A DNA stretch of 64,000 bases, from contig NZ_JXSK01000003.1 of assembly GCF_001083805.1 (NCBI RefSeq), positions 434,001 to 498,000 on the forward strand. Direction: 5' to 3'. This document shows positions 7,254 to 49,934 of the stretch, in pieces. A program made the position numbers and the translations under genes. A model generated the notes under the pieces. That model was not told the origin of the DNA and did not search any database. It saw only the letters and a list, made by a program, of their open reading frames with translations. Source of the DNA: Photorhabdus luminescens subsp. luminescens (GTDB lineage: Bacteria; Pseudomonadota; Gammaproteobacteria; Enterobacterales; Enterobacteriaceae). How positions within the stretch are numbered: position 1 is the first letter of the stretch; the number at the start of each line of letters is the position of its first letter.

Positions 7254-7275
7254 CGATTTTAATTAAGTGCTAAAA

Positions 7276-7296
7276 CAGGCCCCTAAGCGGGGCCTG
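7276..7296 (+). promoter_or_regulatory. Hairpin between tcA and tcB
   Basis: A perfect 8-bp GC-rich stem (caggcccc / ggggcctg) with a 5-nt loop sits just upstream of the tcB ribosome site (aaggag, 7298-7303). There is no T-run, so it is not a standard intrinsic terminator. The same hairpin is present at the same place in the tcdA1-tcdB operon (28703-28723) with a different loop. Confidence 0.7.
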
Positions 7297-7309
7297 CAAG
7301 GAGTCTTTC

Positions 7310-10300
7310 ATGCAAAATTCACAAGATTTCAGTATTACAGAACTATCATTGCCCAAAGGAGGAGGCGCTATCACGGGAATGGGGGAAGCTTTAACCCCCA
7401 CCGGGCCGGATGGGATGGCCGCGCTGTCTCTGCCGTTGCCTATCTCTGCCGGGCGCGGTTATGCTCCGTCACTCGCCTTAAACTACAACAGCGGCGCCGG
7501 TAACAGCCCATTTGGTCTGGGCTGGGATTGCAACGTTATGACCATCCGCCGCCGCACCCATTTTGGCGTTCCACATTATGATGAAACCGATACCTTTCTG
7601 GGGCCAGATGGCGAGGTACTGGTGGTAGCGGATCAATCCCGCGACGAATCGACATTACAGGGTATCAACTTAGGCACCGCCTTTACCGTTACCGGATACC
7701 GTTCCCGTCTGGAGAGTCATTTCAGCCGATTGGAATATTGGCAACCCAAGGCAACACCCAAGACAACTGGCAAAACAGATTTTTGGCTGATATATAGCCC
7801 AGATGGACAAGTACATTTACTGGGTAAATCACCACAAGCCCGGATCAGCAACCCGTCAGACATCACTCAAACAGCACAATGGTTGCTAGAAGCCTCTGTG
7901 TCACCACATGGTGAACAAATTTATTATCAATATCGGGCCGAGGATAACACCGGTTGCGAAGCTGATGAAATTACTCTCCATCCACAGGCCGCCGCGCAAC
8001 GTTATCTACACACAGTGTATTACGGCAACCGGACAGCCAGCAAAACGTTACCCGGTCTGGATGGCAGCGCCCCACCACAAGCAGACTGGTTATTCTATCT
8101 GGTATTTGATTACGGCGAACGCAGTAACAACCTGAGAACGCCGCCAGCATTTTCGACTACAGGTAGCTGGCTTTGTCGCCAGGACCGTTTTTCCCGTTAT
8201 GAATATGGTTTTGAGATTCGTACCCGCCGCTTATGCCGTCAGGTATTGATGTATCACCACCTGCAAGCTCTGGATAGCGAGATAAAAGAACACAACGGAC
8301 CAACGCTGGTTTCACGCCTGATACTCAATTATGACGAAAGCGCAATCGCCAGCACGCTGGTATTCGTTCGTCGAGTAGGCCACGAGCAAGACGGTACTGC
8401 CGTCACCCTGCCGCCATTAGAATTGGCGTATCAGGATTTTTCACCGCAACATAACGCTCGCTGGCAATCGATGAATGTGCTGGCAAACTTCAATGCCATT
8501 CAGCGCTGGCAACTAGTTGATCTAAAAGGCGAAGGATTCCCCGGTCTGCTATATCAAGATAAAGGCGCCTGGTGGTACCGCTCCGCACAACGTTTTGGCA
8601 AAATTGGCTCAGATGCCGTCACTTGGGAAAAAATGCAACCTTTGTCGGTTATCCCTTCCTTGCAAAGTAATGCCTCGCTGGTGGATATCAATGGAGACGG
8701 CCAACTTGACTGGGTTATCACCGGACCGGGATTACGGGGATATCATAGTCAGCATCCAGATGGCAGTTGGACACGTTTTACCCCGCTCAACGCTCTGCCA
8801 GTGGAATATACTCATCCACGCGCGCAACTCGCCGATTTAATGGGAGCTGGACTTTCTGATTTAGTACTGATCGGCCCTAAGAGTGTACGTTTATATGCCA
8901 ATACCCGCGACGGCTTTGCCAAAGGAAAAGATGTAGTGCAATCCGGTGATATCACACTGCCAGTACCGGGCGCCGATCCGTGTAAGTTGGTGGCATTTAG
9001 TGATGTATTGGGTTCCGGTCAGGCACATCTGGTTGAAGTGAGCGCGACTAAAGTCACCTGCTGGCCTAATCTGGGGCACGGACGTTTTGGTCAACCAATT
9101 ACTCTTCCGGGATTTAGCCAACCAGAAGCGACGTTTAATCCTGCTCAAGTTTATCTGGCCGATCTAGATGGCAGCGGCCCGACTGATCTGATTTATGTTC
9201 ACACAGATCGTCTGGATATCTTCCTGAATAAAAGCGGCAACGGCTTCGCCGCACCAGTAACTCTCCCCTTCCCAGCCGGAGTGCGTTTTGATCATACCTG
9301 TCAGTTACAAGTGGCCGATGTACAAGGGTTAGGCGTCGCCAGCCTGATATTAAGTGTGCCGCATATGACTCCCCATCACTGGCGTTGCGATCTGACCAAC
9401 ACAAAACCGTGGTTACTCAGTGAAATGAACAACAATATGGGGGCTCATCACACCCTGCGTTACCGTAGTTCCGCCCAGTTCTGGCTGGATGAAAAAGCCA
9501 CGGCACTGGATGCCGGACAAATACCAGTTTGTTATCTACCCTTCCCGGTACACACCCTATGGCAAACGGAAATAGAGGATGAAATCAGCGGCAACAAATT
9601 AGTCACAATACTACGTTATGCACATGGCGCCTGGGATGGACGTGAGCGAGAATTTCGCGGATTTGGTTATGTTGAACAGAAAGACAGCCATCAACTGGCC
9701 CAAGGCAGTGCGCCAGAATGCACACCACCTGCACTGACCCAAGGCAACGCGCCTGAACTCACATCACCCGCGCTGACCCAAGGCAACGCTCCAGAACTCA
9801 CACCACCTGCGATGACCCAAAGCAACGCGCCTGAACTCACATCACCCGCGCTGACCCAAGGCAACGCGCCAGAATTCACATCACCCGCGCTGGCCCAAGG
9901 CAATGCGCCAGAACTCACACCACCTGCGATGACCAAAAACTGGTATGCCACCGGAATACCCATGATAGATAACACATTATCGACAGAGTATTGGCATGGT
10001 GATCACCAAGCTTTTGCCGGTTTTTCACCACGCTTTACGACCTGGCAAGATGGTCAAGATATTCTGCTCACACCGGAAAATGATAACAGTCAGTACTGGC
10101 TAAACCGGGCACTGAAAGGTCAACTGCTACGCAGTGAACTGTACGGCGAGGATGGCAGTACACAGGAAAAAATTCCCTACACAGTCACTGAATTTCGCCC
10201 ACAGGTACGTCGGTTACAGCATACCGATAGCCGATACCTTGTGCTTTGGTCATCTGTAGTTGAAAGCCGCAACTATCATTACGAACGTATCGCCAGCGAT

Positions 10301-11977
10301 CCTCAATGCAGCCAAAAGATTACGCTATCCAGCGATCTATTTGGTCAACCGCTAAAACAGGTTTCGGTACAGTATCCACGCCGCCAGCAACCGGCAAGCA
10401 GTCCGTATCCTGATACGTTGCCTGATAAGTTATTTGCTAACAGCTATGATGACCAGCAACACAAATTACGGCTCACCTATCAACAGTTCAGTTGGCATCA
10501 TCTGACCGACAATACCATTCTGATGTTAGGATTACCGGATAGTACCCGCAGCGATATCTTTGCTTATAGCGCTGAACATGTCCCTACTGGTGGTCTAAAT
10601 CTGGAAATCCTAAATGATAAAAATAGTCTGATTGCGGAGAATAAACCTCGTGAATACCTCGGCCAGCAAAAAACCGTTTATACCGACGGGCAAAATGCAA
10701 CGCCATCGCAAACGCCAACACGACAAGCGCTGATTGCCTTCACCGAGACAACAGTATTTAATCAATCCACACTATCAGCGTTTGATGGGAGTATCTCATC
10801 TGCTCAATTGTCAACGACGCTGGAACAAGCCGGATACCAGCAAACAGATTATCTATTCCCGCGCACTGGAGAAGATAAAGTCTGGGCAGCTCGTCGTGGC
10901 TATACTGATTACGGCACAGCCGAACAGTTCTGGCGGCCGCAAAAACAGAGCAACACTCAACTCACGGGCAAAATCACGCTCACTTGGGATGCAAACTATT
11001 GCGTCGTCACACAAACCCGGGATGCGGCTGGACTGACAACCTCAGCCAGATATGATTGGCGTTTTCTGACCCCCGTTCAACTCACGGATATCAACGACAA
11101 TCAGCACCTTACCACGCTGGATGCACTGGGCCGACCAATCACACTGCGCTTTTGGGGAACCGAAAACGGTAAGATGACTGGTTATTCTTCACCGGAAAAA
11201 ATATCGTTTTCTCCACCATCTGATGTTGACGCCGCGATTAAGTTAACAACGCCAATCCCTGTAGCACAGTGTCAGGTCTACGCACCCGAAAGCTGGATGC
11301 CCATATTAAAGAAAACCCTCAATAACCTGGCAGAGCAAGAGCGGAAAGAGTTATATAACACCCGAATCATCACCGAAGACGGACGCATCTGTACCCTAGC
11401 TCACCGCCGCTGGGTAAAAAGCCAAAGTGCAGTCACCCAGCCAATCAATCTGTCAAACGGCAGTCCCCGTTTACCCCCTCATAGCCTCACATTGACTACG
11501 GATCGTTATGACCGCGATCTTAAGCAACAGATTCGTCAACAAGTAGTATTCAGTGATGGCTTTGGCCGTTTACTGCAAGCATCTGTACGACATGAAGCAG
11601 GCGAAGCCTGGCAACGTAACCAAGACGGCGCTCTGGTGACAAAAATGGAAGATACCAAAACGCGCTGGGCGGTTACGGGACGCACTGAATATGACAATAA
11701 GGGACAACCGATACGCACCTATCAACCCTATTTCCTCAACGACTGGCAATACGTCAGTAATGACAGTGCCCGGCGGACAGAAGAAGCCTATGCAGATACC
11801 CATGTCTATGATCCCATTGGTCGAGAAATCAAGGTCACTACCGCAAAAGGCTGGTTCCGTCGAACCTTGTTCACTCCTTGGTTTACTGTCAATGAAGATG
11901 AAAATGACACAGCTACTGAGGTGAAGGTAAAGAAGAAAGAATGTAAAGAAGGTAAAGAAGGTAAAGATGTAATTTGA
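7310..11977 (+). CDS. tcdB: TcB-type Tc toxin subunit (TcdB family) with internal tandem repeats
   Basis: 1555 residues. TcB forms the beta-propeller gate and half of the cocoon that encloses the TcC payload and docks on TcA. It has the SpvB-like N-terminus (LPKGGGAITGMGEAL, SLPLPISAGRGYAPSL), FG-GAP-type repeats in the middle (DINGDGQLDWVITGPGL, LADLDGSGPTDLIYVH) and the RHS-like C-terminal part ending ETYAD/THVYDPIGREIKV. Start at the ATG with aaggag 7 nt upstream. It is 74 residues longer than the paralogue at 28737, largely because of six 13-residue repeats at residues 796-873, and it ends in a Lys/Glu/Gly-rich tail (KVKKKECKEGKEGKDVI) where the paralogue ends LSADALV. Its position before the holin gene and tccC3 matches the locus I know as tcdB2, but the number is not certain. 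Confidence 0.96.
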   Translation: MQNSQDFSITELSLPKGGGAITGMGEALTPTGPDGMAALSLPLPISAGRGYAPSLALNYNSGAGNSPFGLGWDCNVMTIRRRTHFGVPHYDETDTFLGPDGEVLVVADQSRDESTLQGINLGTAFTVTGYRSRLESHFSRLEYWQPKATPKTTGKTDFWLIYSPDGQVHLLGKSPQARISNPSDITQTAQWLLEASVSPHGEQIYYQYRAEDNTGCEADEITLHPQAAAQRYLHTVYYGNRTASKTLPGLDGSAPPQADWLFYLVFDYGERSNNLRTPPAFSTTGSWLCRQDRFSRYEYGFEIRTRRLCRQVLMYHHLQALDSEIKEHNGPTLVSRLILNYDESAIASTLVFVRRVGHEQDGTAVTLPPLELAYQDFSPQHNARWQSMNVLANFNAIQRWQLVDLKGEGFPGLLYQDKGAWWYRSAQRFGKIGSDAVTWEKMQPLSVIPSLQSNASLVDINGDGQLDWVITGPGLRGYHSQHPDGSWTRFTPLNALPVEYTHPRAQLADLMGAGLSDLVLIGPKSVRLYANTRDGFAKGKDVVQSGDITLPVPGADPCKLVAFSDVLGSGQAHLVEVSATKVTCWPNLGHGRFGQPITLPGFSQPEATFNPAQVYLADLDGSGPTDLIYVHTDRLDIFLNKSGNGFAAPVTLPFPAGVRFDHTCQLQVADVQGLGVASLILSVPHMTPHHWRCDLTNTKPWLLSEMNNNMGAHHTLRYRSSAQFWLDEKATALDAGQIPVCYLPFPVHTLWQTEIEDEISGNKLVTILRYAHGAWDGREREFRGFGYVEQKDSHQLAQGSAPECTPPALTQGNAPELTSPALTQGNAPELTPPAMTQSNAPELTSPALTQGNAPEFTSPALAQGNAPELTPPAMTKNWYATGIPMIDNTLSTEYWHGDHQAFAGFSPRFTTWQDGQDILLTPENDNSQYWLNRALKGQLLRSELYGEDGSTQEKIPYTVTEFRPQVRRLQHTDSRYLVLWSSVVESRNYHYERIASDPQCSQKITLSSDLFGQPLKQVSVQYPRRQQPASSPYPDTLPDKLFANSYDDQQHKLRLTYQQFSWHHLTDNTILMLGLPDSTRSDIFAYSAEHVPTGGLNLEILNDKNSLIAENKPREYLGQQKTVYTDGQNATPSQTPTRQALIAFTETTVFNQSTLSAFDGSISSAQLSTTLEQAGYQQTDYLFPRTGEDKVWAARRGYTDYGTAEQFWRPQKQSNTQLTGKITLTWDANYCVVTQTRDAAGLTTSARYDWRFLTPVQLTDINDNQHLTTLDALGRPITLRFWGTENGKMTGYSSPEKISFSPPSDVDAAIKLTTPIPVAQCQVYAPESWMPILKKTLNNLAEQERKELYNTRIITEDGRICTLAHRRWVKSQSAVTQPINLSNGSPRLPPHSLTLTTDRYDRDLKQQIRQQVVFSDGFGRLLQASVRHEAGEAWQRNQDGALVTKMEDTKTRWAVTGRTEYDNKGQPIRTYQPYFLNDWQYVSNDSARRTEEAYADTHVYDPIGREIKVTTAKGWFRRTLFTPWFTVNEDENDTATEVKVKKKECKEGKEGKDVI
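9695..9928 (+). repeat. 39-bp tandem repeat, 6 copies, in tcB
   Basis: Six imperfect 39-bp units encode LTQGNAPELTSPA-like 13-mers (variants LAQGSAPECTPPA, MTQSNAPELTSPA, LTQGNAPEFTSPA). The paralogous TcB at 28737 has a single copy (LAQGNAPERTSPA) in the same place before LTKNWYATGIP. Copies alternate between TSP and TPP, suggesting expansion by two-unit steps. Confidence 0.96.
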
Positions 11978-20430: not shown

Positions 20431-21132
20431 ATATCCTTCTTATTTTAATTCATTGTTCCATCCGAAATAGAATGGAATGTTAACAAGAAAACATTACAAC
20501 TACTTTTCTTCTTTGCATTATTTAACATCAAAGTATGCATTAACTGAGATTGAGTTTTATCATCTTTATTCTTAACAGTTATCAAACAATTTTCATTATT
20601 ATTGCAAAATAAATACAACCCCTTCTTATGTTACAATAATGATTATAAAGAAATTTCACATATTATCATTAAGTAATAATGGGCACAATTAACCATTTAA
20701 TTAAACATTTCAATTGGTTGACAAAGACTCATTATGTTCAACATGTAATGAGCGCAATTTTAACATTAAATAAATTACATAGTTCATATTCATTATCACT
20801 GAGATCAGCTTTTTTCGTATAGTACATCATGTGAACAATACCGTGCCATTTCCTGCCAAATCTTATTAAAAAGTCAGTTGCAAATTTTGCATCTGCTTTT
20901 TTTGCAACAGCTATTTAAAGAAAACAGTGAGATAGTGATTATCCGAGAGATCAAGATATGTCTGCTCTTTACGCACAAACTGCAAACCATTTCTATGCAT
21001 ATCTCAGCTATTTCTCAAAACCTGTATTTAATCATCTCTTATTCCGATGGAACGGAATCATTCTCTGATTGATTCATGATGTAAAGACAATATGGATGTT
21101 TCATTTACTTTATGATTTTAAAAGGAATAAAT
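20431..21132. other. Intergenic region upstream of tcdA1
   Basis: About 700 bp between divergent lysR and tcdA1. It is A+T-rich with no convincing gene; the longest open stretch (20878-21072) starts with TTG, lacks a ribosome site and has no recognisable motif. Promoters for both genes must be here but no clear -35/-10 pair could be assigned by eye. Confidence 0.6.
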
Positions 21133-24100
21133 ATGAATTCGCCTGTAAAAGAGATACCTGATGTATTAAAAATCCAGTGTGGTTTTCAGTGTCTGACAGA
21201 TATTAGCCACAGCTCTTTTAACGAATTTCACCAGCAAGTATCCGAACACCTCTCCTGGTCCGAAGCACACGACTTATATCATGATGCACAACAGGCCCAA
21301 AAGGATAATCGGCTGTATGAAGCGCGTATTCTTAAACGCACGAATCCTCAATTACAAAATGCTGTACATCTTGCCATCGTAGCGCCTAATGCTGAACTGA
21401 TAGGCTATAACAACCAATTTAGCGGCAGGGCCAGTCAATATGTCGCGCCGGGTACCGTTTCCTCCATGTTCTCCCCCGCCGCTTATTTGACTGAGCTTTA
21501 TCGTGAAGCACGCAATTTACACGCCAGCGATTCCGTTTATCGCCTGGATACTCGCCGCCCAGATCTCAAATCAATGGCGCTCAGTCAACAAAATATGGAT
21601 ACGGAACTTTCCACTCTCTCTTTATCCAATGAGCTATTATTGGAAAGCATTAAAACTGAGTCTAAGCTGGATAATTATACTCAAGTGATGGAAATGCTCT
21701 CCGCTTTCCGTCCTTCCGGCGCGACGCCTTATCACGATGCTTACGAAAATGTGCGTAAAGTTATCCAGCTACAAGATCCTGGGCTTGAGCAATTAAATGC
21801 TTCACCAGCCATTGCCGGGCTGATGCATCAAGCTTCCCTATTAGGTATTAACGCTTCAATCTCACCTGAGTTGTTTAATATTCTGACGGAGGAGATTACT
21901 GAAGGTAATGCTGAGGAACTTTATAAGAAAAATTTTGGTAATATCGAACCGGCTTCACTGGCTATGCCGGAATACCTTAGACGTTATTACAATTTAAGTG
22001 ATGAAGAACTCAGCCAGTTTATTGGTAAAGCCAGCAATTTCGGCCAACAAGAATATAGTAATAACCAACTCATTACTCCGATAGTCAACAGCAATGATGG
22101 CACAGTCAAGGTATATCGAATTACCCGCGAATATACAACAAATGCCAATCAAGTAGACGTGGAGCTGTTTCCCTACGGTGGAGAAAATTATCAGTTAAAT
22201 TACAAATTCAAAGATTCTCGTCAGGATGTCTCCTATTTATCCATCAAATTAAATGACAAAAGAGAACTTATCCGAATTGAAGGAGCGCCTCAGGTCAACA
22301 TCGAATATTCAGAACATATCACATTAAGTACAACTGATATCAGTCAACCTTTTGAAATCGGCCTAACACGAGTATATCCTTCTAGTTCTTGGGCATATGC
22401 AGCCGCAAAATTTACCATTGAGGAATATAACCAATACTCTTTCCTGTTAAAACTCAATAAAGCTATTCGTCTATCTCGTGCGACAGAATTATCACCCACC
22501 ATTCTGGAAAGTATTGTGCGTAGTGTTAATCAGCAACTGGATATCAACGCAGAAGTATTAGGTAAAGTTTTTCTGACTAAATATTATATGCAACGTTATG
22601 CTATTAATGCTGAAACTGCCCTAATACTATGCAATGCACTTATTTCACAACGTTCATATGATAATCAACCTAGCCAATTTGATCGCCTGTTTAATACGCC
22701 ATTACTGAACGGCCAATATTTTTCTACCGGAGATGAAGAGATTGATTTAAATCCAGGTAGTACTGGCGATTGGCGTAAATCCGTGCTTAAACGTGCATTT
22801 AATATCGATGATATTTCCCTCTACCGCCTGCTTAAAATTACCAACCATAATAATCAAGATGGAAAGATTAAAAATAACTTAAATAATCTTTCTGATTTAT
22901 ATATTGGGAAATTACTGGCAGAAATTCATCAATTAACCATTGATGAATTGGATTTATTGCTGGTTGCCGTGGGTGAAGGAGAAACTAATTTATCCGCTAT
23001 CAGTGATAAACAACTGGCGGCACTGATCAGAAAACTCAATACCATTACCGTCTGGCTACAGACACAGAAGTGGAGTGCGTTCCAATTATTTGTTATGACT
23101 TCCACCAGCTATAACAAAACGCTGACGCCTGAAATTAAGAATCTGCTGGATACCGTCTACCACGGTTTACAAGGCTTTGATAAAGACAAGGCAAATTTAC
23201 TGCATGTTATGGCGCCCTATATTGCGGCCACCTTACAATTATCATCGGAAAATGTCGCCCATTCTGTGCTGCTTTGGGCAGACAAGTTAAAGCCCGGCGA
23301 CGGCGCAATGACAGCCGAAAAATTCTGGGACTGGTTGAATACTCAATATACGCCAGATTCATCGGAAGTATTAGCAACACAGGAACATATTGTTCAGTAT
23401 TGTCAGGCGTTGGCGCAATTAGAAATGGTTTACCATTCCACCGGTATCAATGAAAACGCCTTCCGCCTGTTTGTGACAAAACCAGAGATGTTTGGCTCGT
23501 CAACTGAGGCAGTACCTGCGCATGATGCACTTTCACTGATCATGCTGACGCGTTTTGCAGATTGGGTTAATGCGTTAGGCGAAAAAGCCTCTTCCGTACT
23601 AGCGGCATTTGAAGCTAACAGTTTAACGGCAGAACAATTGGCTGATGCCATGAATCTTGATGCTAATTTGCTATTGCAAGCCAGTACTCAAGCACAAAAC
23701 CATCAACATCTTCCCCCAGTGACGCAAAAAAATGCTTTCTCCTGTTGGACATCTATCGACACTATCCTGCAATGGGTTAATGTTGCACAACAATTGAATG
23801 TCGCCCCACAGGGAGTTTCCGCTTTGGTCGGGCTGGATTATATTCAATTAAATCAAAAAATCCCCACCTATGCCCAGTGGGAAAGTGCTGGGGAAATATT
23901 GACTGCCGGATTGAATTCACAACAGGCTGATATATTACACGCTTTTTTGGACGAATCTCGCAGTGCCGCATTAAGCACCTACTATATCCGTCAAGTCGCC
24001 AAGCCAGCGGCAGCCATAAAAAGCCGTGATGACTTGTACCAATACTTACTAATTGATAATCAGGTTTCCGCTGCAATCAAAACTACCCGGATTGCCGAAG

Positions 24101-27100
24101 CCATTGCCAGCATTCAACTGTACGTCAACCGCACGCTGGAAAATGTAGAAGAAAATGCCCATTCAGGGGTTATCAGCCGTCAGTTCTTTATCGACTGGGA
24201 CAAATATAACAAACGCTACAGCACCTGGGCGGGTGTTTCTCAATTAGTTTACTACCCGGAAAACTATATTGATCCCACCATGCGTATCGGACAAACCAAA
24301 ATGATGGACGCATTATTGCAATCCGTCAGCCAAAGCCAATTAAATGCCGATACTGTCGAAGACGCCTTTATGTCTTATCTGACATCGTTTGAGCAAGTGG
24401 CTAATCTTAAAGTTATTAGCGCGTATCACGATAATATTAACAACGATCAAGGGCTGACCTATTTTATCGGCCTCAGTGAAACTGATACCGGTGAATACTA
24501 TTGGCGCAGTGTCGATCACAGTAAATTCAGCGACGGTAAATTCGCCGCTAATGCCTGGAGTGAATGGCACAAAATTGATTGTCCAATTAATCCTTACCGA
24601 AGCACTATCCGTCCTGTGATGTACAAATCCCGCTTGTATCTGCTCTGGTTGGAACAAAAGGAGATCACTAAACAAACAGGAAATAGCAAAGATGGCTATC
24701 AAACCGAGACAGATTATCGTTATGAGCTAAAATTGGCGCATATCCGTTATGACGGTACCTGGAATACGCCAATCACTTTTGATGTCAATGAAAAAATATC
24801 CAAGCTAGAACTGGCAAAAAATAAAGCGCCTGGGCTCTATTGTGCTGGTTATCAAGGTGAAGATACGTTGCTGGTTATGTTTTATAACCAACAAGATACA
24901 CTCGATAGTTATAAAACCGCTTCAATGCAAGGGCTATATATCTTTGCCGATATGGAATATAAAGATATGACCGATGGACAATACAAATCTTATCGGGACA
25001 ACAGCTATAAACAATTCGATACTAATAGTGTCAGAAGAGTGAATAACCGCTATGCAGAGGATTATGAAATTCCCTCATCGGTAAATAGCCGTAAAGGCTA
25101 TGATTGGGGAGATTATTATCTCAGTATGGTATATAACGGAGATATTCCAACTATTAGTTACAAAGCCACATCAAGTGATTTAAAAATCTATATCTCGCCA
25201 AAATTAAGAATTATTCATAATGGATATGAAGGGCAGCAACGCAATCAATGCAATCTAATGAATAAATATGGCAAACTAGGTGATAAATTTATTGTTTATA
25301 CTAGCTTGGGAGTTAATCCAAATAATTCGTCAAATAAGCTGATGTTTTACCCCGTTTATCAATATAACGGAAATGTCAGTGGGCTTAGTCAAGGGAGATT
25401 ACTATTCCACCGTGACACCAATTATTCATCTAAAGTAGAAGCTTGGATTCCTGGAGCAGGACGTTCTCTAACCAATCCGAATGCTGCCATTGGTGATGAT
25501 TATGCTACAGACTCGTTAAACAAACCGAATGATCTTAAGCAATACGTCTATATGACTGACAGTAAAGGTACTGCTACCGATGTCTCAGGACCAGTAGATA
25601 TCAATACTGCAATTTCCCCGGCAAAAGTTCAGGTAACAGTAAAAGCCGGTAGCAAAGAACAAACGTTTACCGCGGATAAAAATGTCTCCATTCAGCCATC
25701 CCCTAGCTTTGATGAAATGAATTATCAATTTAATGCTCTCGAAATAGATGGCTCAAGTCTGAATTTTACTAACAATTCAGCCAGTATTGATATTACCTTT
25801 ACCGCATTTGCAGAGGATGGACGTAAACTGGGTTATGAAAGTTTCAGTATTCCTATTACCCGCAAGGTGAGTACTGATAATTCCCTGACCCTGCGCCATA
25901 ATGAAAATGGTGCGCAATATATGCAATGGGGAGTCTATCGCATTCGTCTTAATACTTTATTTGCTCGCCAATTAGTTGCGCGAGCCACTACCGGTATTGA
26001 TACGATTCTGAGTATGGAAACTCAGAATATTCAGGAACCACAGTTAGGCAAAGGTTTCTACGCTACGTTCGTGATACCTCCGTATAACCCATCAACTCAT
26101 GGTGATGAACGTTGGTTTAAGCTTTATATCAAACATGTTGTTGATAATAATTCACATATTATCTATTCAGGTCAGCTAAAAGATACAAATATAAGCACCA
26201 CGTTATTTATCCCTCTTGATGATGTTCCATTGAACCAAGATTACAGCGCCAAGGTTTACATGACCTTCAAGAAATCACCATCAGATGGTACCTGGTGGGG
26301 CCCTCACTTTGTTAGAGATGATAAAGGAATAGTAACAATAAACCCTAAATCCATTTTGACCCACTTTGAGAGCGTCAATGTCCTGAATAATATTAGTAGC
26401 GAACCAATGGATTTCAGCGGCGCTAACAGCCTCTATTTTTGGGAACTGTTCTACTATACCCCGATGCTGGTTGCCCAACGTTTGTTGCATGAGCAAAACT
26501 TTGATGAAGCGAACCGCTGGCTGAAATATGTCTGGAGCCCATCCGGGTATATTGTTCACGGCCAGATTCAGAATTATCAATGGAACGTCCGCCCGTTATT
26601 GGAAGATACCAGTTGGAACAGTGATCCTTTGGATTCCGTCGATCCTGACGCGGTAGCGCAGCACGATCCGATGCACTATAAAGTTTCAACCTTTATGCGC
26701 ACCCTTGATCTGTTGATCGCGCGCGGCGACCATGCTTACCGCCAATTGGAGCGCGATACGCTTAACGAAGCGAAGATGTGGTATATGCAAGCGCTGCATC
26801 TGTTAGGCGATAAACCTTATCTGCCGCTGAGTACCACATGGAATGATCCACGACTGGACAAAGCCGCGGATATTACTACCCAAAGTGCTCATTCCAGCTC
26901 AATAGTCGCTTTGCGGCAGAGTACACCGGCGCTTTTATCATTGCGCAGCGCCAATACCCTGACCGATCTCTTCCTGCCGCAAATCAATGAAGTGATGATG
27001 AATTACTGGCAAACATTAGCTCAGAGAGTATACAACCTGCGCCACAACCTCTCTATCGACGGTCAGCCGTTATATCTGCCAATCTATGCCACACCGGCGG

Positions 27101-28680
27101 ACCCGAAAGCGTTACTCAGCGCCGCTGTTGCCACTTCTCAAGGTGGAGGCAAGCTGCCGGAGTCATTTATGTCCCTGTGGCGTTTCCCGCACATGCTGGA
27201 AAATGCTCGCAGCATGGTTAGCCAGCTCACCCAATTCGGCTCCACGTTACAAAATATTATCGAACGTCAGGACGCAGAAGCGCTCAATGCGTTATTACAA
27301 AATCAGGCCGCAGAGCTGATATTGACTAACCTGAGTATTCAAGACAAAACCATTGAAGAACTGGATGCCGAGAAAACCGTGCTGGAAAAATCCAAAGCGG
27401 GAGCACAATCGCGCTTTGATAGCTATAGCAAACTGCATGATGAAAACATCAACGCCGGTGAAAACCAAGCTATGACGCTACGAGCGTCCGCAGCCGGGCT
27501 TACCACGGCGGTTCAGGCATCCCGTCTGGCCGGCGCAGCGGCTGATCTGGTGCCTAACATCTTCGGCTTCGCCGGTGGTGGTAGCCGTTGGGGGGCTATC
27601 GCTGAGGCGACCGGCTATGTAATGGAATTTTCCGCTAATGTTATGAATACCGAAGCGGATAAAATTAGCCAATCTGAAACCTACCGTCGTCGCCGTCAGG
27701 AGTGGGAAATTCAGCGTAATAATGCCGAAGCGGAGCTGAAACAACTCGATGCCCAACTTAAATCGCTGGCAGTACGCCGTGAAGCCGCCGTATTGCAAAA
27801 AACCAGCCTGAAAACCCAACAAGAGCAGACCCAAGCCCAATTGGCCTTCCTGCAACGTAAGTTCAGCAATCAAGCGTTGTACAACTGGCTACGTGGCCGA
27901 CTGGCAGCAATTTACTTCCAATTCTACGACTTGGCTATCGCGCGTTGTTTAATGGCAGAGCAGGCTTACCGTTGGGAAATTAGCGATGACTCTGCTCGCT
28001 TTATTAAACCGGGCGCCTGGCAAGGAACCTATGCAGGTCTGCTGGCAGGTGAAACCTTGATGCTAAGTTTGGCACAAATGGAAGACGCCCATTTAAGACG
28101 CGATAAACGCGCATTAGAGGTCGAACGTACAGTATCGCTGGCCGAAATTTATGCTGGTTTACCGCAAGATAAAGGCCCATTCTCCCTGACGCAAGAAATC
28201 GAGAAGCTGGTGAATGCAGGTTCAGGCAGCGCCGGCAGTGGTAATAATAATTTGGCATTTGGCGCCGGCACGGACACTAAAACTTCTTTGCAGGCATCCA
28301 TTTCATTAGCTGATTTAAAAATTCGTGAGGATTACCCGGAATCTATTGGCAAAATCCGACGCATCAAACAGATCAGCGTTACCCTGCCGGCGCTATTGGG
28401 ACCTTATCAGGATGTGCAGGCAATATTATCTTACGGCGATAAAGCCGGATTAGCGAACGGCTGTGCAGCGCTGGCCGTTTCCCACGGTACGAATGACAGC
28501 GGTCAATTCCAGCTCGATTTCAACGATGGCAAATTCCTGCCGTTTGAAGGTATCGCCATTGATCAAGGTACGCTAACACTGAGTTTTCCTAATGCATCAA
28601 CGCCAGCCAAAGGTAAACAAGCCACTATGTTAAAAACCCTGAACGATATCATTTTGCATATTCGCTACACCATTAAGTAA
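21133..28680 (+). CDS. tcdA1: TcA-type Tc toxin subunit TcdA1
   Basis: 2515 residues from the ATG at 21133, preceded by aaagga at 21121; an upstream in-frame ATG at 21112 would add seven residues, but MNSPVKEIPDVLK matches the known TcdA1 start. It forms the pentameric bell-shaped injector that binds target cells and, on pH change, inserts its channel. Order: alpha-helical shell, insertion at about 300-430 (receptor-binding domain A), helical shell again, receptor-binding beta domains in the 1300-1600 region, neuraminidase-like segment at about 1640-1757, linker and channel (NIFGFAGGGSRWGAIAEATG near 2150), C-terminal TcB-binding region ending DIILHIRYTIK. It agrees nearly residue for residue with W14 TcdA1 as I remember it. 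It is followed by tcdB after 56 bp. Confidence 0.97.
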   Translation: MNSPVKEIPDVLKIQCGFQCLTDISHSSFNEFHQQVSEHLSWSEAHDLYHDAQQAQKDNRLYEARILKRTNPQLQNAVHLAIVAPNAELIGYNNQFSGRASQYVAPGTVSSMFSPAAYLTELYREARNLHASDSVYRLDTRRPDLKSMALSQQNMDTELSTLSLSNELLLESIKTESKLDNYTQVMEMLSAFRPSGATPYHDAYENVRKVIQLQDPGLEQLNASPAIAGLMHQASLLGINASISPELFNILTEEITEGNAEELYKKNFGNIEPASLAMPEYLRRYYNLSDEELSQFIGKASNFGQQEYSNNQLITPIVNSNDGTVKVYRITREYTTNANQVDVELFPYGGENYQLNYKFKDSRQDVSYLSIKLNDKRELIRIEGAPQVNIEYSEHITLSTTDISQPFEIGLTRVYPSSSWAYAAAKFTIEEYNQYSFLLKLNKAIRLSRATELSPTILESIVRSVNQQLDINAEVLGKVFLTKYYMQRYAINAETALILCNALISQRSYDNQPSQFDRLFNTPLLNGQYFSTGDEEIDLNPGSTGDWRKSVLKRAFNIDDISLYRLLKITNHNNQDGKIKNNLNNLSDLYIGKLLAEIHQLTIDELDLLLVAVGEGETNLSAISDKQLAALIRKLNTITVWLQTQKWSAFQLFVMTSTSYNKTLTPEIKNLLDTVYHGLQGFDKDKANLLHVMAPYIAATLQLSSENVAHSVLLWADKLKPGDGAMTAEKFWDWLNTQYTPDSSEVLATQEHIVQYCQALAQLEMVYHSTGINENAFRLFVTKPEMFGSSTEAVPAHDALSLIMLTRFADWVNALGEKASSVLAAFEANSLTAEQLADAMNLDANLLLQASTQAQNHQHLPPVTQKNAFSCWTSIDTILQWVNVAQQLNVAPQGVSALVGLDYIQLNQKIPTYAQWESAGEILTAGLNSQQADILHAFLDESRSAALSTYYIRQVAKPAAAIKSRDDLYQYLLIDNQVSAAIKTTRIAEAIASIQLYVNRTLENVEENAHSGVISRQFFIDWDKYNKRYSTWAGVSQLVYYPENYIDPTMRIGQTKMMDALLQSVSQSQLNADTVEDAFMSYLTSFEQVANLKVISAYHDNINNDQGLTYFIGLSETDTGEYYWRSVDHSKFSDGKFAANAWSEWHKIDCPINPYRSTIRPVMYKSRLYLLWLEQKEITKQTGNSKDGYQTETDYRYELKLAHIRYDGTWNTPITFDVNEKISKLELAKNKAPGLYCAGYQGEDTLLVMFYNQQDTLDSYKTASMQGLYIFADMEYKDMTDGQYKSYRDNSYKQFDTNSVRRVNNRYAEDYEIPSSVNSRKGYDWGDYYLSMVYNGDIPTISYKATSSDLKIYISPKLRIIHNGYEGQQRNQCNLMNKYGKLGDKFIVYTSLGVNPNNSSNKLMFYPVYQYNGNVSGLSQGRLLFHRDTNYSSKVEAWIPGAGRSLTNPNAAIGDDYATDSLNKPNDLKQYVYMTDSKGTATDVSGPVDINTAISPAKVQVTVKAGSKEQTFTADKNVSIQPSPSFDEMNYQFNALEIDGSSLNFTNNSASIDITFTAFAEDGRKLGYESFSIPITRKVSTDNSLTLRHNENGAQYMQWGVYRIRLNTLFARQLVARATTGIDTILSMETQNIQEPQLGKGFYATFVIPPYNPSTHGDERWFKLYIKHVVDNNSHIIYSGQLKDTNISTTLFIPLDDVPLNQDYSAKVYMTFKKSPSDGTWWGPHFVRDDKGIVTINPKSILTHFESVNVLNNISSEPMDFSGANSLYFWELFYYTPMLVAQRLLHEQNFDEANRWLKYVWSPSGYIVHGQIQNYQWNVRPLLEDTSWNSDPLDSVDPDAVAQHDPMHYKVSTFMRTLDLLIARGDHAYRQLERDTLNEAKMWYMQALHLLGDKPYLPLSTTWNDPRLDKAADITTQSAHSSSIVALRQSTPALLSLRSANTLTDLFLPQINEVMMNYWQTLAQRVYNLRHNLSIDGQPLYLPIYATPADPKALLSAAVATSQGGGKLPESFMSLWRFPHMLENARSMVSQLTQFGSTLQNIIERQDAEALNALLQNQAAELILTNLSIQDKTIEELDAEKTVLEKSKAGAQSRFDSYSKLHDENINAGENQAMTLRASAAGLTTAVQASRLAGAAADLVPNIFGFAGGGSRWGAIAEATGYVMEFSANVMNTEADKISQSETYRRRRQEWEIQRNNAEAELKQLDAQLKSLAVRREAAVLQKTSLKTQQEQTQAQLAFLQRKFSNQALYNWLRGRLAAIYFQFYDLAIARCLMAEQAYRWEISDDSARFIKPGAWQGTYAGLLAGETLMLSLAQMEDAHLRRDKRALEVERTVSLAEIYAGLPQDKGPFSLTQEIEKLVNAGSGSAGSGNNNLAFGAGTDTKTSLQASISLADLKIREDYPESIGKIRRIKQISVTLPALLGPYQDVQAILSYGDKAGLANGCAALAVSHGTNDSGQFQLDFNDGKFLPFEGIAIDQGTLTLSFPNASTPAKGKQATMLKTLNDIILHIRYTIK

Positions 28681-47542: not shown

Positions 47543-47650
47543 ATGGACAAGAAAACAAATAGTACTCCTAGCCCCGCTGCCAAGCAGAAAGCCAAGGTCG
47601 TTATCAAACCGAAAAGTGATCGGCCAATTCTGATGGCAGTTCACCTGTAA
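47543..47650 (+). CDS. 35-residue lysine-rich peptide, candidate RiPP precursor
   Basis: ATG preceded by ggag at 47533 (spacing about 7). It encodes a Lys/Pro/Ala-rich N-terminal part (MDKKTNSTPSPAAKQKAK) and a hydrophobic end (SDRPILMAVHL). It is followed by a hairpin with TTTTT (47661-47688) and then two enzyme genes in the same direction whose folds include recognition-like winged-helix domains. A short peptide gene with a partly terminated readthrough to modifying enzymes is the usual arrangement of a ribosomally made, post-translationally modified peptide. Leader and core boundaries cannot be seen. It is too short to be found by ordinary gene calling. Confidence 0.65.
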   Translation: MDKKTNSTPSPAAKQKAKVVIKPKSDRPILMAVHL

Positions 47651-47660
47651 TCCCTCCTAA

Positions 47661-47688
47661 ACAGTCAGCCCGCAAGCTGGCTGTTTTT
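47661..47688 (+). terminator. Attenuator-like terminator behind the peptide gene
   Basis: Short stem cagcc / ggctg with an 8-nt loop followed by TTTTTA, 15 bp behind the peptide stop and 20 bp before the next start. The stem is weak, so partial readthrough into the enzyme genes is likely. Confidence 0.6.
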
Positions 47689-47707
47689 ATTTCTGGTAGA
47701 GAATACT

Positions 47708-48688
47708 ATGGAAAAAAATAACTACGCTATATTCGGCCATTTGGAAAAAAATGGCAGTGATTTCGTATTCAGCGATAAATATATAACCTTCGACGTTGAA
47801 AATCTTTCCGGAAATATCAATGACTGGAATGCGGTACTCAACTCCTGCGACGGGAATACTCCGCTAAAAAACATCCTGGAAAAGCACCCAAAAATTCACG
47901 GTGAAGAAGCCACTGAGTTTCTGAATGCTCTGGTGAACAATAAGATTGGTTATATCAATAACTCTGGTGAAGAATTTGTATCCGGTGATGAAGCAATACT
48001 GATTCTCGAAGATCTCCAAGCGAACCTGCTTTATTCTATGCTCTATAAGAATAAATTCTGGCAAACGATGCAATCCCCACAGGATGTACCAGAAAAAGTT
48101 TATTACGGTATGGCAATTGAAAACTATCACTTCCTATTCCGTGAAAGCTGGTTTGACTCTCCGGTTCTGAGTTACCCGCCTTCAACGAAGGCCAAACTCA
48201 TTATGAATAAGTTTTACGGCGAGGAGTACGGATATGATGAACTTATTCTGAATGCACTAAATCATCTAGGTATTGAAAGAGCAGACATGGCAGAAACCCT
48301 GCCGCTTCCTGAGACTCTGTCTCTCTGTGATGCCCTGGCCTACTGGTCAGCAAACGATCCGCTGTTCTTCTTCAGCATCATGGATATCCTCGAAGGAAAA
48401 GATATTAAAGTAAACAGCTATATTTTGGCGATGGAAAGCAGCGGAAAAATTCCGCCTGACTTTATTAAGCCAATTAAGGCACACGCAAATATTAATATTG
48501 CAGCCGAACATGGAATTCTTACCCGTGAATTCTTTCATGAAATCCCTGTTGTCCGTTACGACCAGATGAAGAGTATGATTACGAATACCCAACTCTTCGT
48601 TGAGCTTTACGATGATTTTCACAGTGCTGTCTGGAATTATTACTCAGACGATAGCAAACCTCTACTTCGTCGCCTGTCAGATATTTAA
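47708..48688 (+). CDS. Heme-oxygenase-like-fold (PqqC/TENA-type) protein with RRE-like N-terminus, 1
   Basis: 326 residues. Residues about 25-85 (VENLSGNINDWNAVLNSCDG, LKNILEKHP, FLNALVNNKIGYI) follow the strand-helix-helix plan of PqqD-like RiPP recognition elements. Residues about 95-300 look like a helical diiron-oxidase or PqqC-like domain with candidate ligands E138 and H141 (MAIENYHF), E172-E173 with D177 (GEEYGYDELI) and H259, E267, H268 (AHANINIAAEHGI). Compared with its neighbour the second motif has Tyr where His is expected, so it may bind metal differently or be a non-catalytic partner. It follows the peptide gene by 57 bp and the next gene by 11 bp. Not recognised as a characterised family member. 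Confidence 0.75.
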   Translation: MEKNNYAIFGHLEKNGSDFVFSDKYITFDVENLSGNINDWNAVLNSCDGNTPLKNILEKHPKIHGEEATEFLNALVNNKIGYINNSGEEFVSGDEAILILEDLQANLLYSMLYKNKFWQTMQSPQDVPEKVYYGMAIENYHFLFRESWFDSPVLSYPPSTKAKLIMNKFYGEEYGYDELILNALNHLGIERADMAETLPLPETLSLCDALAYWSANDPLFFFSIMDILEGKDIKVNSYILAMESSGKIPPDFIKPIKAHANINIAAEHGILTREFFHEIPVVRYDQMKSMITNTQLFVELYDDFHSAVWNYYSDDSKPLLRRLSDI

Positions 48689-48699
48689 CGGAGCCCGTC

Positions 48700-49686
48700 A
48701 TGCAGACTTCATACCAACGTTTCATTACTCCACGTTTTCGAGATGGCGTGCAATACGCCCGCCACGGAGAAGAACATTATATTGACTACCGTCAGCAGGG
48801 AATGGTGCTTTCTCTCGATAAGAAAGATAATTCACTCGGCAATTTTCTCTCTGATTTGAAGGCTGGAGGGAAAACTCAAGCCGAACTAAAAGCTGCTCAT
48901 CCAGTATTATCTGACGAAATAGAAGATATTATTGAACAGCTCGACAGCCATTATCTTCTGACAGAAAGTCATTATCCAAACATCAGCGGTACCCTGTCAG
49001 GCAAACAATTTGCCAATCAGCTTAAACGATATTCACGTGTATGGCATGCGCAACTGGGTAATTCGGCACTCTATACTGCTATGAGTGAAGGACGAGCTAC
49101 CCGTTCCCAGCTCATTGGTTATACTATCGAATATTATCATATCGTCAAAGCCGCGCCGTCTATCATTGCCCCGGCGATGTCTCATAAATGCCCAGATCCC
49201 GTTTTTCAGGGAATAAAACAGCTTTTTCTCGAAGAACACGATCATGAAACTATGATGCTGAAAACACTCTCTGCGGTGGGGCTCCCGGAAGAGCAGGTTA
49301 AGAAAGCAACGCCTCTTTCCAGCACGTTTGCCATTTTCTGCACTCTCAGCACATTCGCACGTCAGCACCTTCTGAGCTTCATCTCCGCGCTATTTTTGTT
49401 CGAAGAACCTTATCCAGAATTTAACGATGTCTTCGTAACCACTTGCCAGTCACTCGATCTTCCTGAAAAATTCTGGAAACCAATCATCGACCATTCAGCT
49501 ATCAATGAGGAAGGTGGTCATCATCTCATCACCGATGAGCTGCTGGAGCATATTTCAGCCATCTCCGCGGAAGAAGCTCGCGTCACATTGGTTCACATCA
49601 TGACGCTGCTGGAAACCATGAAAATATGGGATGCACAGATATGCAGTAGCTATGAATCCGCCCTGAATCTACGTATTTTCGTGTAA
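48700..49686 (+). CDS. Heme-oxygenase-like-fold (PqqC/TENA-type) protein with RRE-like N-terminus, 2
   Basis: 328 residues, start 11 bp after the previous stop with a ggag site (48690). Distant paralogue of the preceding protein. Residues about 33-90 resemble a small winged-helix recognition domain (SLGNFLSDLKAGGKTQAELK, IIEQLDSHYLL). The helical domain has a complete ligand-like set: E144 and H147 (YTIEYYHI), E178, E179, H180, H182 (LEEHDHETMM), H265, E270-E271, H274-H275 (HSAINEEGGHH). This fits a heme-oxygenase-like diiron oxidase acting on a peptide or amino-acid derivative. The two proteins may form a heterodimer. Function is inferred, no close characterised relative is known to me. Confidence 0.78.
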   Translation: MQTSYQRFITPRFRDGVQYARHGEEHYIDYRQQGMVLSLDKKDNSLGNFLSDLKAGGKTQAELKAAHPVLSDEIEDIIEQLDSHYLLTESHYPNISGTLSGKQFANQLKRYSRVWHAQLGNSALYTAMSEGRATRSQLIGYTIEYYHIVKAAPSIIAPAMSHKCPDPVFQGIKQLFLEEHDHETMMLKTLSAVGLPEEQVKKATPLSSTFAIFCTLSTFARQHLLSFISALFLFEEPYPEFNDVFVTTCQSLDLPEKFWKPIIDHSAINEEGGHHLITDELLEHISAISAEEARVTLVHIMTLLETMKIWDAQICSSYESALNLRIFV

Positions 49687-49934
49687 GAACCGGCCATAGA
49701 ACAATGGAGTTTAAATCATTATGTCAAATCGGCGCTCCATGCCCCAATTCTTAAAAAAAGGTCAACATGTTCAGGCATCCATTTGATTCCCCGCCTGAAT
49801 GGGTTCGCTGGCATGAATGGAGACTGCATGAAGGAATGTCTATCTCACCATTGACTGATTCTTTTCACCGGCATACTCGATCAGCGCATATCACACGTGT
49901 TGTCTCTCACAGGAGTGTCATAAATGTCCGTTCT
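49687..49934 (+). other. Short remnants behind the peptide-modification genes
   Basis: Two short open stretches begin at 49722 (MSNRRSMPQFLKKGQHVQ, 21 residues) and 49767 (60 residues, MFRHPFDSPPEWVRWHEW, with aaaagg upstream; its stop at 49949 lies in the terminator stem). Neither shows a family motif. They could be a truncated third gene of the cluster (for example an exporter) or chance. Confidence 0.3.

Follow-up and report, generated by a model that had tools for sequence, protein, structure and literature searches.

Introduction

Heme-oxygenase-like diiron oxidases (HDOs) have been described on amino acids, amino-acid derivatives and one ligase-made peptide, as set out in PMC13185094. 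According to the same paper, the mangotoxin HDO MboA (PDB 9YPI/9YPL/9YPM) has a short peptide as substrate and works on its C-terminal residue: the crystal ligands of the enzyme are Glu86, His89, Glu143, His172, Asp176 and His181, Asp90 beside His89 can act as an extra iron ligand, the C-terminal carboxylate of the substrate binds Fe1, and the C-terminal residue is desaturated. Anchoring of the substrate by a carboxylate is also reported there for AetD, UndA, HrmI and PolF. Here we describe a locus in a 64,000-nucleotide stretch of Photorhabdus luminescens subsp. luminescens (contig NZ_JXSK01000003.1, positions 434,001 to 498,000; this whole stretch is called the window), in which the genes of two HDOs, HDO1 and HDO2, follow a 35-codon peptide gene. 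A sequence-only reading of this DNA had proposed such a peptide with two consecutive enzyme genes, and all three open reading frames (ORFs) are present (Table 1). We regard the locus as probably the truncated remainder of a pathway spread by horizontal transfer and resembling those of ribosomally synthesized and post-translationally modified peptides (RiPPs), in which diiron oxidases guided by RiPP recognition elements (RREs) would modify the C-terminus of the peptide to give a small exported product.

HDO1 and HDO2 match MboA at the profile level (E 0.0044 and 0.067) and share its ligand spacing, E-xx-H, E, H-xxx-D/N-xxxx-H. However, the similarity is remote, the peptide of MboA is made by ATP-grasp ligases and not by the ribosome, MboA has the redox partner MboB, and it carries Asp where HDO1, HDO2 and a third paralog of related clusters, HDO3, have Asn (PMC13185094). 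The gvg system for 4-formylaminooxyvinylglycine (FVG), with mangotoxin the nearest known pathway, was compared by description only. According to PMC8067088 and PMC8064604, it has a Lys-rich small ORF, gvgB, whose role they leave unclear, near the Haem-oxygenase-2 gene gvgC, together with a class III aminotransferase (gvgH) and amino-acid exporters, and its product is a modified amino acid. It needs, however, an esterase (gvgA) and a carbamoyltransferase (gvgF) and uses a single HDO. An esterase and a carbamoyltransferase of this type were found neither by Pfam in the related clusters of P. tasmaniensis T327 (L001) and of G835 (L051), a genome of the same family, nor in the annotated clusters of Robbsia and Rhodococcus; the clusters scanned are not members of the gvg system. 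The PQQ proteins offer a further likeness, since a PqqD-like N-terminal profile match is combined here with a helical domain of the TENA/THI-4/PQQC family. In contrast to PqqC and PqqD, both parts are fused in one chain that occurs as two or three paralogs. PqqC is not known to have the diiron-type ligand set, and neither a PqqA-type peptide nor the radical SAM enzyme PqqE is among the cluster proteins (Pfam for L001 and L051; ORF lists). We found no account of a peptide with two RRE-HDO proteins in the open-access literature; subscription journals lay outside this search, so a description may exist there.

The peptide and its ending

HDO1 orthologs define 11 loci, namely the window, P. tasmaniensis, Robbsia, Rhodococcus, Tistrella and the genomes G835, G838, G869, G1362, G1363 and G1365. 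At all 11 a short upstream ORF of 17-55 amino acids ends in His-Leu (HL) directly before the stop codon, so that a conserved gene-encoded candidate precursor stands beside the enzyme genes, as expected of a RiPP system. Since the peptide accompanies the enzymes at every locus, the objection that it is not conserved beside them is removed, and the comparison for co-conservation that the sequence-only reading suggested as a check turns out in favour of its proposal. The window peptide, with GGAG 5' of its ATG, has a Lys/Val strand-like segment KVVIKPK and the C-terminus RPILMAVHL, and that of P. tasmaniensis ends in KSDRPILMAAHL before the stop. In 10 of the 11 peptides a Val/Ile-rich strand-like stretch is followed by [RKH]P[VI]L-x-[AP]-x-HL, while the Rhodococcus peptide retains only A-V-HL. 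The length is only 17-27 amino acids in six loci, for example 27 in Robbsia and 17 in Rhodococcus, the latter counted from an internal ATG of a 46-codon ORF. It reaches 55 in Tistrella, where the ORF lies 5' of the gene of a thiamine pyrophosphate (TPP) enzyme that precedes a fused HDO1-HDO2.

The background of this ending was counted in the first 8 of the 11 loci. There, HL closes 27 of the 5738 stop-ended segments with 15 or more amino acids, the eight peptides included, and each upstream region contains exactly one such segment among its 6-17; only 345 bases upstream exist for L001, and in Tistrella the region 5' of the TPP-enzyme gene was chosen with the ORF already known. G1362, G1363 and G1365 were retrieved after the motif had been fixed and served as a blind test, in which the ending was present in three of three.

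A sister arrangement has another ending. In the four loci examined with a single HDO, the upstream short ORF ends in Cys-Gly (CG) before the stop and not in HL (Table 1). These peptides read MKLKK[IV]SKKSTKKLGGATCG in two related genomes and MKLKKVDAAKTSTRRVNGATCG; in Rhizobium etli p42f a 67-residue ORF ending LMCG lies upstream of the single HDO. An MFS-like gene follows the HDO in L054 and L056, and L057 also has genes reading as a pyridoxal-phosphate (PLP) enzyme, EamA, radical SAM and MocR-type proteins. The ending thus appears to go with the type of enzyme, CG beside single HDOs and HL beside HDO1.

The hairpin between peptide and enzyme genes

A hairpin lies 3' of the peptide gene in all 11 loci, and peptide, hairpin, HDO1 and HDO2 form a conserved unit. 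In the window the hairpin has an 11-pair stem and a T-rich tail, and the folding energy of the spacer is -16.9 kcal/mol (z -2.6, with an equally good fold in 3 of 200 shuffles), so that its earlier description as a weak terminator has to be corrected. Compared with 200 shuffles, the hairpin is unusually stable in 10 of 11 loci (z -2.6 to -6.4, for G838 over the first 70 of 170 spacer bases), and that of Tistrella is not significant (z -0.84; 39 of 200 shuffles equally good).

The strongest rival explanation follows from the conservation next to the stop codon and the hairpin behind it: the short ORF could be a translation-arrest leader. Such leaders are known from TnaC- or Erm-leader-like peptides. 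A ribosome stalled at the stop codon would block the terminator hairpin and switch on the HDO, exporter and acetyltransferase genes, and the HDOs would act on a free amino acid or metabolite. Conservation is indeed concentrated at the C-terminus of the peptide, the hairpin as read from the folds lies within ~4-20 nucleotides in 11 of 11 loci and could be covered by a stalled ribosome, and exporter and GNAT genes fit a resistance-type operon. On the other hand, PqqD/RRE-like N-termini are present in both enzymes, RiPP operons too commonly have a hairpin behind the precursor gene, and the CG ending of the single-HDO loci, two of which are close relatives, tracks the enzyme type, which makes arrest less likely. 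We therefore consider an arrest leader unlikely and prefer the reading of the peptide as a precursor.

The N-terminal domains

The sequence-only reading had assigned a PqqD-like winged helix to both enzymes. Pfam gives no PqqD match up to E 10 in either of them. With hhalign, however, the N-termini match an alignment of 21 PqqD segments taken from PF05402 matches, with 92.7% for HDO1 and 79.5% for HDO2; the alignment excludes L075, L076 and L082 (weak or short) and L077, which has its genome and score in common with L063. Other column ranges over the same part give 61-92% (HDO1) and 72-75% (HDO2). A range from column 90 of HDO1, which keeps the last part of the domain, reaches 14.2%, ranges from column 120 (HDO1) or 90 (HDO2) onward at most 1.8%, and 20 column-shuffled N-termini of each at most 1.6%. 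The HDO2 profile also touches the ArsR winged helix (E 0.06). The single-HDO N-terminus matches that of HDO1 (91.2) better than PqqD (12.7%). An N-terminal winged helix is thus well supported by these profiles, and its reading as an RRE is likely but not proven. The proposal of a RiPP-type unit of peptide and two RRE-HDO proteins stands as far as the peptide, the profile match to PqqD and the metal-ligand positions are concerned, and lacks a Pfam assignment of PqqD.

Enzyme families and metal-ligand positions

Both enzymes match TENA_THI-4 above the Pfam cut-off (HDO1 E 3.7e-5, HDO2 E 8.8e-9), in agreement with the PqqC/TENA-type helical domain proposed before, and HDO2 (4e-7), but not HDO1 (0.019), passes that of Haem_oxygenas_2. 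Together with the profile matches to 3dde and 9ypi this places them, by sequence, in the HDO superfamily fold; NCBIfam names neither above its cut-off. In a tree of 28 proteins HDO1, HDO2 and HDO3 form one group each (support 100/96, 88/93 and 100/100). HDO2 of G1365 was left out of the tree since its reading frame is broken near 7800 (L108:7463-8472), which is another sign of cluster decay or a sequencing error.

HDO2 has some likeness to CADD (4-aminobenzoate synthase, 1RCW/8VA9; phmmer E 0.003). With 39.7 bits against the cut-off of 200 for TIGR04305 (NCBIfam), however, it falls outside that family. This weak match would suit HDOs that are ordinary free-amino-acid oxidases of the CADD, BesC or UndA type, with the winged helix serving only dimer contacts and the peptide being a co-transcribed small protein of other function. 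We know of no RRE domain or peptide partner of CADD. An HL-ending peptide that accompanies HDO1 in 11 of 11 loci and two phyla, and that is just 17-27 residues long in six of them, makes such oxidases very unlikely, and peptide-directed HDOs remain our preferred reading.

An alignment of 29 proteins has six conserved positions, in HDO2 numbering E179, H182, E235, H265, N269 and H274, whose counterparts in the window HDO1 are E173, Y176, E229, H259, N263 and H268. The set is complete in HDO2 of 11 of 11 loci (for G1365 as judged from its C-terminal fragment), in four of four HDO3 and in 10 of 11 HDO1 proteins; the exception is the window HDO1 with Tyr176, where the other 10 have His. Compared with the 3-His/3-carboxylate set of MboA, five of six positions agree and the sixth is Asn for Asp, and the window HDO1 in addition lacks one His. 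Three single-HDO relatives carry Asp, not Asn, at the sixth position. The ligand lists of the sequence-only reading were partly wrong. H182 and H265 of HDO2 and H259 and H268 of HDO1 are part of the conserved set; E144/H147 of HDO2 are frequent but not invariant among the 29 proteins, E271/H275 are not conserved (23 proteins), and D177 of HDO1 is the residue next to ligand position Y176. The same reading had suggested that HDO1 and HDO2 are an active enzyme and its partner. As both paralogs keep the six positions in other genomes and the gap of HDO1 is specific to the window, we rejected this pairing. Asp177 is the counterpart of the facultative MboA ligand Asp90, and the window HDO1 may therefore keep some metal binding; as judged from its residues it is compromised, not proven dead. 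Asp is found at this position in six other HDO1 proteins as well, and Ala in G869, Phe in G1362, Cys in G1363 and Tyr in G1365.

Truncation of the window copy

In P. tasmaniensis T327 the genes of the peptide, HDO1 and HDO2 (80% identical) are followed by HDO3 (471 amino acids, Haem_oxygenas_2), a class III aminotransferase, an ATP-grasp protein, an MFS transporter and a GNAT protein. G835 has the identical eight genes in identical order, and its ATP-grasp protein has an L-amino acid ligase C-terminal domain just below cut-off (29.0 vs 29.4 bits). Using blastn, window positions 49665-49764 correspond to L001 2307-2407, where HDO2 ends and HDO3 begins, and a second remnant corresponds to a part of the L001 ATP-grasp gene close to its 3' end (Table 1). 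About 3.5 kb between the two are therefore missing: the window copy is truncated by an internal deletion of the aminotransferase gene and of the greater part of the HDO3 and ATP-grasp genes. The earlier suspicion that the locus is incomplete is thereby demonstrated. The observation that no exporter is visible is also true of the window, and elsewhere an MFS, MFS-like or EamA gene adjoins the cluster in 8 of 11 loci (four MFS-like genes below the Pfam cut-off). No MFS or GNAT gene lies 3' of the remnants. A DNA search of the own genome with the whole L001 contig, which would miss more diverged copies, returned nothing beyond the window stretches, a single GNAT-like gene (69%) and short repeats. 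The ends of the L001 contig (1-59 and 7935-7992) are inverted copies of a ~59 bp repeat that recurs many times in Photorhabdus genomes; repeats may thus flank the cluster, or the assembly may be broken at them.

The other loci differ in extent. In G869, G1362, G1363 and G1365 the cluster comprises the peptide, HDO1, HDO2 and a transporter that is MFS-like, in all four below the curated MFS_1 cut-off (E 5e-6, 0.007, 3e-5 and 7e-8, respectively). The Rhodococcus cluster includes an MFS transporter and GNAT, that of Robbsia HDO1-3, the aminotransferase, an EamA transporter and GNAT, and that of Tistrella the TPP enzyme, the fused HDO1-HDO2 and an HDO3 that Pfam fails to recognise. In G838 the contig stops after HDO2. 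Three genomes from a single genus have a type III polyketide synthase-like gene in the neighbourhood of the HDO cluster (L053:5719-6771, L106:852-1895, L107:14915-15970).

Due to the deletion, the lack of an adjacent exporter or GNAT gene and the loss of the ligand His in HDO1, the window copy is probably a decayed relative of the conserved system which no longer makes the original product. In HDO1, 24 changes fall on the window lineage and 11 on that of P. tasmaniensis (chi2 4.8), which agrees weakly with a compromised enzyme; the 22 and 16 changes in HDO2 do not differ significantly. The ratio of non-synonymous to synonymous substitution rates (dN/dS) is 0.08-0.09 between the enzymes of the two species, at a near-saturated dS of 1.3-1.7, and such low estimates show protein-level constraint on both enzymes over most of their divergence. 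Together with the two intact ORFs this constraint could also mean that peptide, HDO1 and HDO2 of the window still work as a minimal pathway with an exporter elsewhere, Tyr176/Asp177 being a functional variant. Clusters without HDO3 and aminotransferase do exist (Rhodococcus, G869, G1362, G1363 and G1365), and Asp90 beside His89 can coordinate iron in MboA (PMC13185094). Nevertheless, Tyr176 is unique among the 11 HDO1 proteins, HDO1 has the excess of changes, neither exporter nor GNAT is adjacent, and remnants of a longer form persist. A working minimal pathway is thus distinctly unlikely, and we favour decay.

Distribution

HDO2 is present in 2 of 12 Photorhabdus genomes, the second being P. 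tasmaniensis T327; 18 of 394 genomes of the order have some HDO2 match, none but the own genome near full strength. The HDO1 profile matches 7 of 295 genomes of the family (E up to 1e-10), with orthologs by score in the own genome, G835, G838 and G869, as well as 4 of 369 of the class and 2 of 398 of the phylum, where only that of the own genome is an ortholog. Within genera it matches 3 of 6 genomes for G869 and 2 of 4 for G835. Three of 72,556 plasmid records carry HDO1, from Robbsia andropogonis, Tistrella mobilis and Rhodococcus gordoniae. The patchy presence in genera and the plasmid locations suggest horizontal transfer of the gene set. As to viral spread, no HDO1 relative was found in viral_contigs and no HDO2 match in phage records; E. 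coli genomes gave no match to the three-gene stretch.

Two candidates were set aside. The Enterobacter chuandaensis plasmid L027 has a different multi-HDO cluster (2320-10764), with genes for two iron-containing redox enzymes, an M14 metallopeptidase, an aminotransferase, an MFS protein and a nucleotidyltransferase. G974 of the same family has three consecutive HDO-like ORFs and then an MFS-like ORF (L055:5640-9721), with no HL-ending ORF just upstream.

Table 1. Features of the locus, and the short ORFs of the sister arrangement
Feature	Coordinates	Strand	Evidence
Precursor-like peptide, 35 amino acids, MDKKTNSTPSPAAKQKAKVVIKPKSDRPILMAVHL	47543..47650	+	ORF; related HL-ending ORF in 11/11 loci
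Intrinsic-terminator-like hairpin, between peptide and enzyme genes	47659..47686	+	scan; same position in 11/11 loci
HDO1, 326 amino acids	47708..48688	+	Pfam, hhalign, ligand alignment, tree
HDO1 parts: PqqD/RRE-like winged helix (~residues 1-91), then heme-oxygenase-like diiron oxidase domain			
HDO2, 328 amino acids	48700..49686	+	Pfam, hhalign, ligand alignment
HDO2 parts: PqqD/RRE-like (~residues 1-93), then heme-oxygenase-like diiron oxidase domain, six ligand positions complete			
HDO3 start remnant, without ATG at the start position	49696..49764	+	blastn to L001, HDO3 start at L001 2337
ATP-grasp gene 3' remnant, 80% identity to L001 5961-6059	49776..49874	+	blastn; genus DNA search
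CG-ending ORF, single-HDO locus L054	just upstream of 7351		
CG-ending ORF, single-HDO locus L056	just upstream of 8688	-	
CG-ending ORF, single-HDO locus L057	near 7342	-	
CG-ending ORF, single-HDO locus L109	4612-4815		

Away from the locus, the first large ORF of the window (87-7253, insecticidal-toxin-like) has a short tandem-repeated block near its start that is not seen in the paralog at 21112-28680.

Discussion

The gene content, the co-conservation, the conserved ligand positions and the truncation are established by the sequences, and the pathway that follows is inferred. We propose that the short Lys-rich peptide would serve as precursor or scaffold and that the PqqD-like RRE domains in both enzymes would hold its Lys/Val-rich middle. 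The invariant C-terminal His-Leu with its free carboxylate could then be presented to the diiron site or sites, by analogy with MboA; an invariant free C-terminus fits HDOs that anchor their substrate by a carboxylate, as PMC13185094 reports for MboA. One or both HDOs may abstract hydrogen from the C-terminal Leu or His-Leu, with desaturation, ring closure or oxidative decarboxylation as the outcome. A general peptidase would then release a small modified amino acid or dipeptide, which an MFS or EamA transporter would export and which, in clusters with a GNAT gene, would be acetylated as self-protection. In the larger versions HDO3, the class III aminotransferase and the ATP-grasp ligase may be added for tailoring.

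Several observations weigh against this pathway. The 11 loci are not independent, as 8 of them come from one bacterial family, and ~1.9 kb separate HDO1 of Tistrella from its upstream HL ORF, which precedes the TPP-enzyme gene. The HL ending beside a hairpin could instead mark a translation-arrest leader. The RRE match is moderate and column-dependent (61-93 for HDO1, 72-80 for HDO2) and concerns mainly the helical part, and the N-terminus of HDO3 fails to match PqqD (7.9%). All HDO1-3 proteins carry Asn at one ligand position, where MboA has Asp. Finally, no protease or other release enzyme was recognised by Pfam among the L001 and L051 proteins, in the annotated Robbsia and Rhodococcus clusters or in the ORF lists of the other loci. 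A dedicated maturation protease is not obligatory in every RiPP pathway.

As a whole, the rare mobile gene set looks like an undescribed route from a gene-encoded peptide tail to a small compound. A bolder version, which we advance tentatively and with chances just short of even, is that it represents an undescribed RiPP class spread over at least two phyla by horizontal transfer. In it, RRE-fused HDOs marked by an Asn ligand would modify the free C-terminus of a minimal precursor, down to 17 residues long and with an invariant His-Leu end, from which a small amino-acid-like product would be set free. Single HDOs acting on Cys-Gly precursors would be a sister class, and the pairing of an RRE-HDO with a short peptide would amount to a general strategy for building amino-acid antimetabolites on disposable ribosomal scaffolds.

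The conserved system is better studied in its intact relatives than in the window copy. Should the peptide prove to be the substrate, the activity of the HDO superfamily would extend to ribosomal-peptide pathways under RRE guidance, the C-terminal carboxylate probably being the metal anchor. Such clusters could then be sought by the rule of an RRE-HDO accompanied by a short ORF with HL or CG as its ending, and the role of Lys-rich small ORFs near HDO genes, such as gvgB, would become testable.

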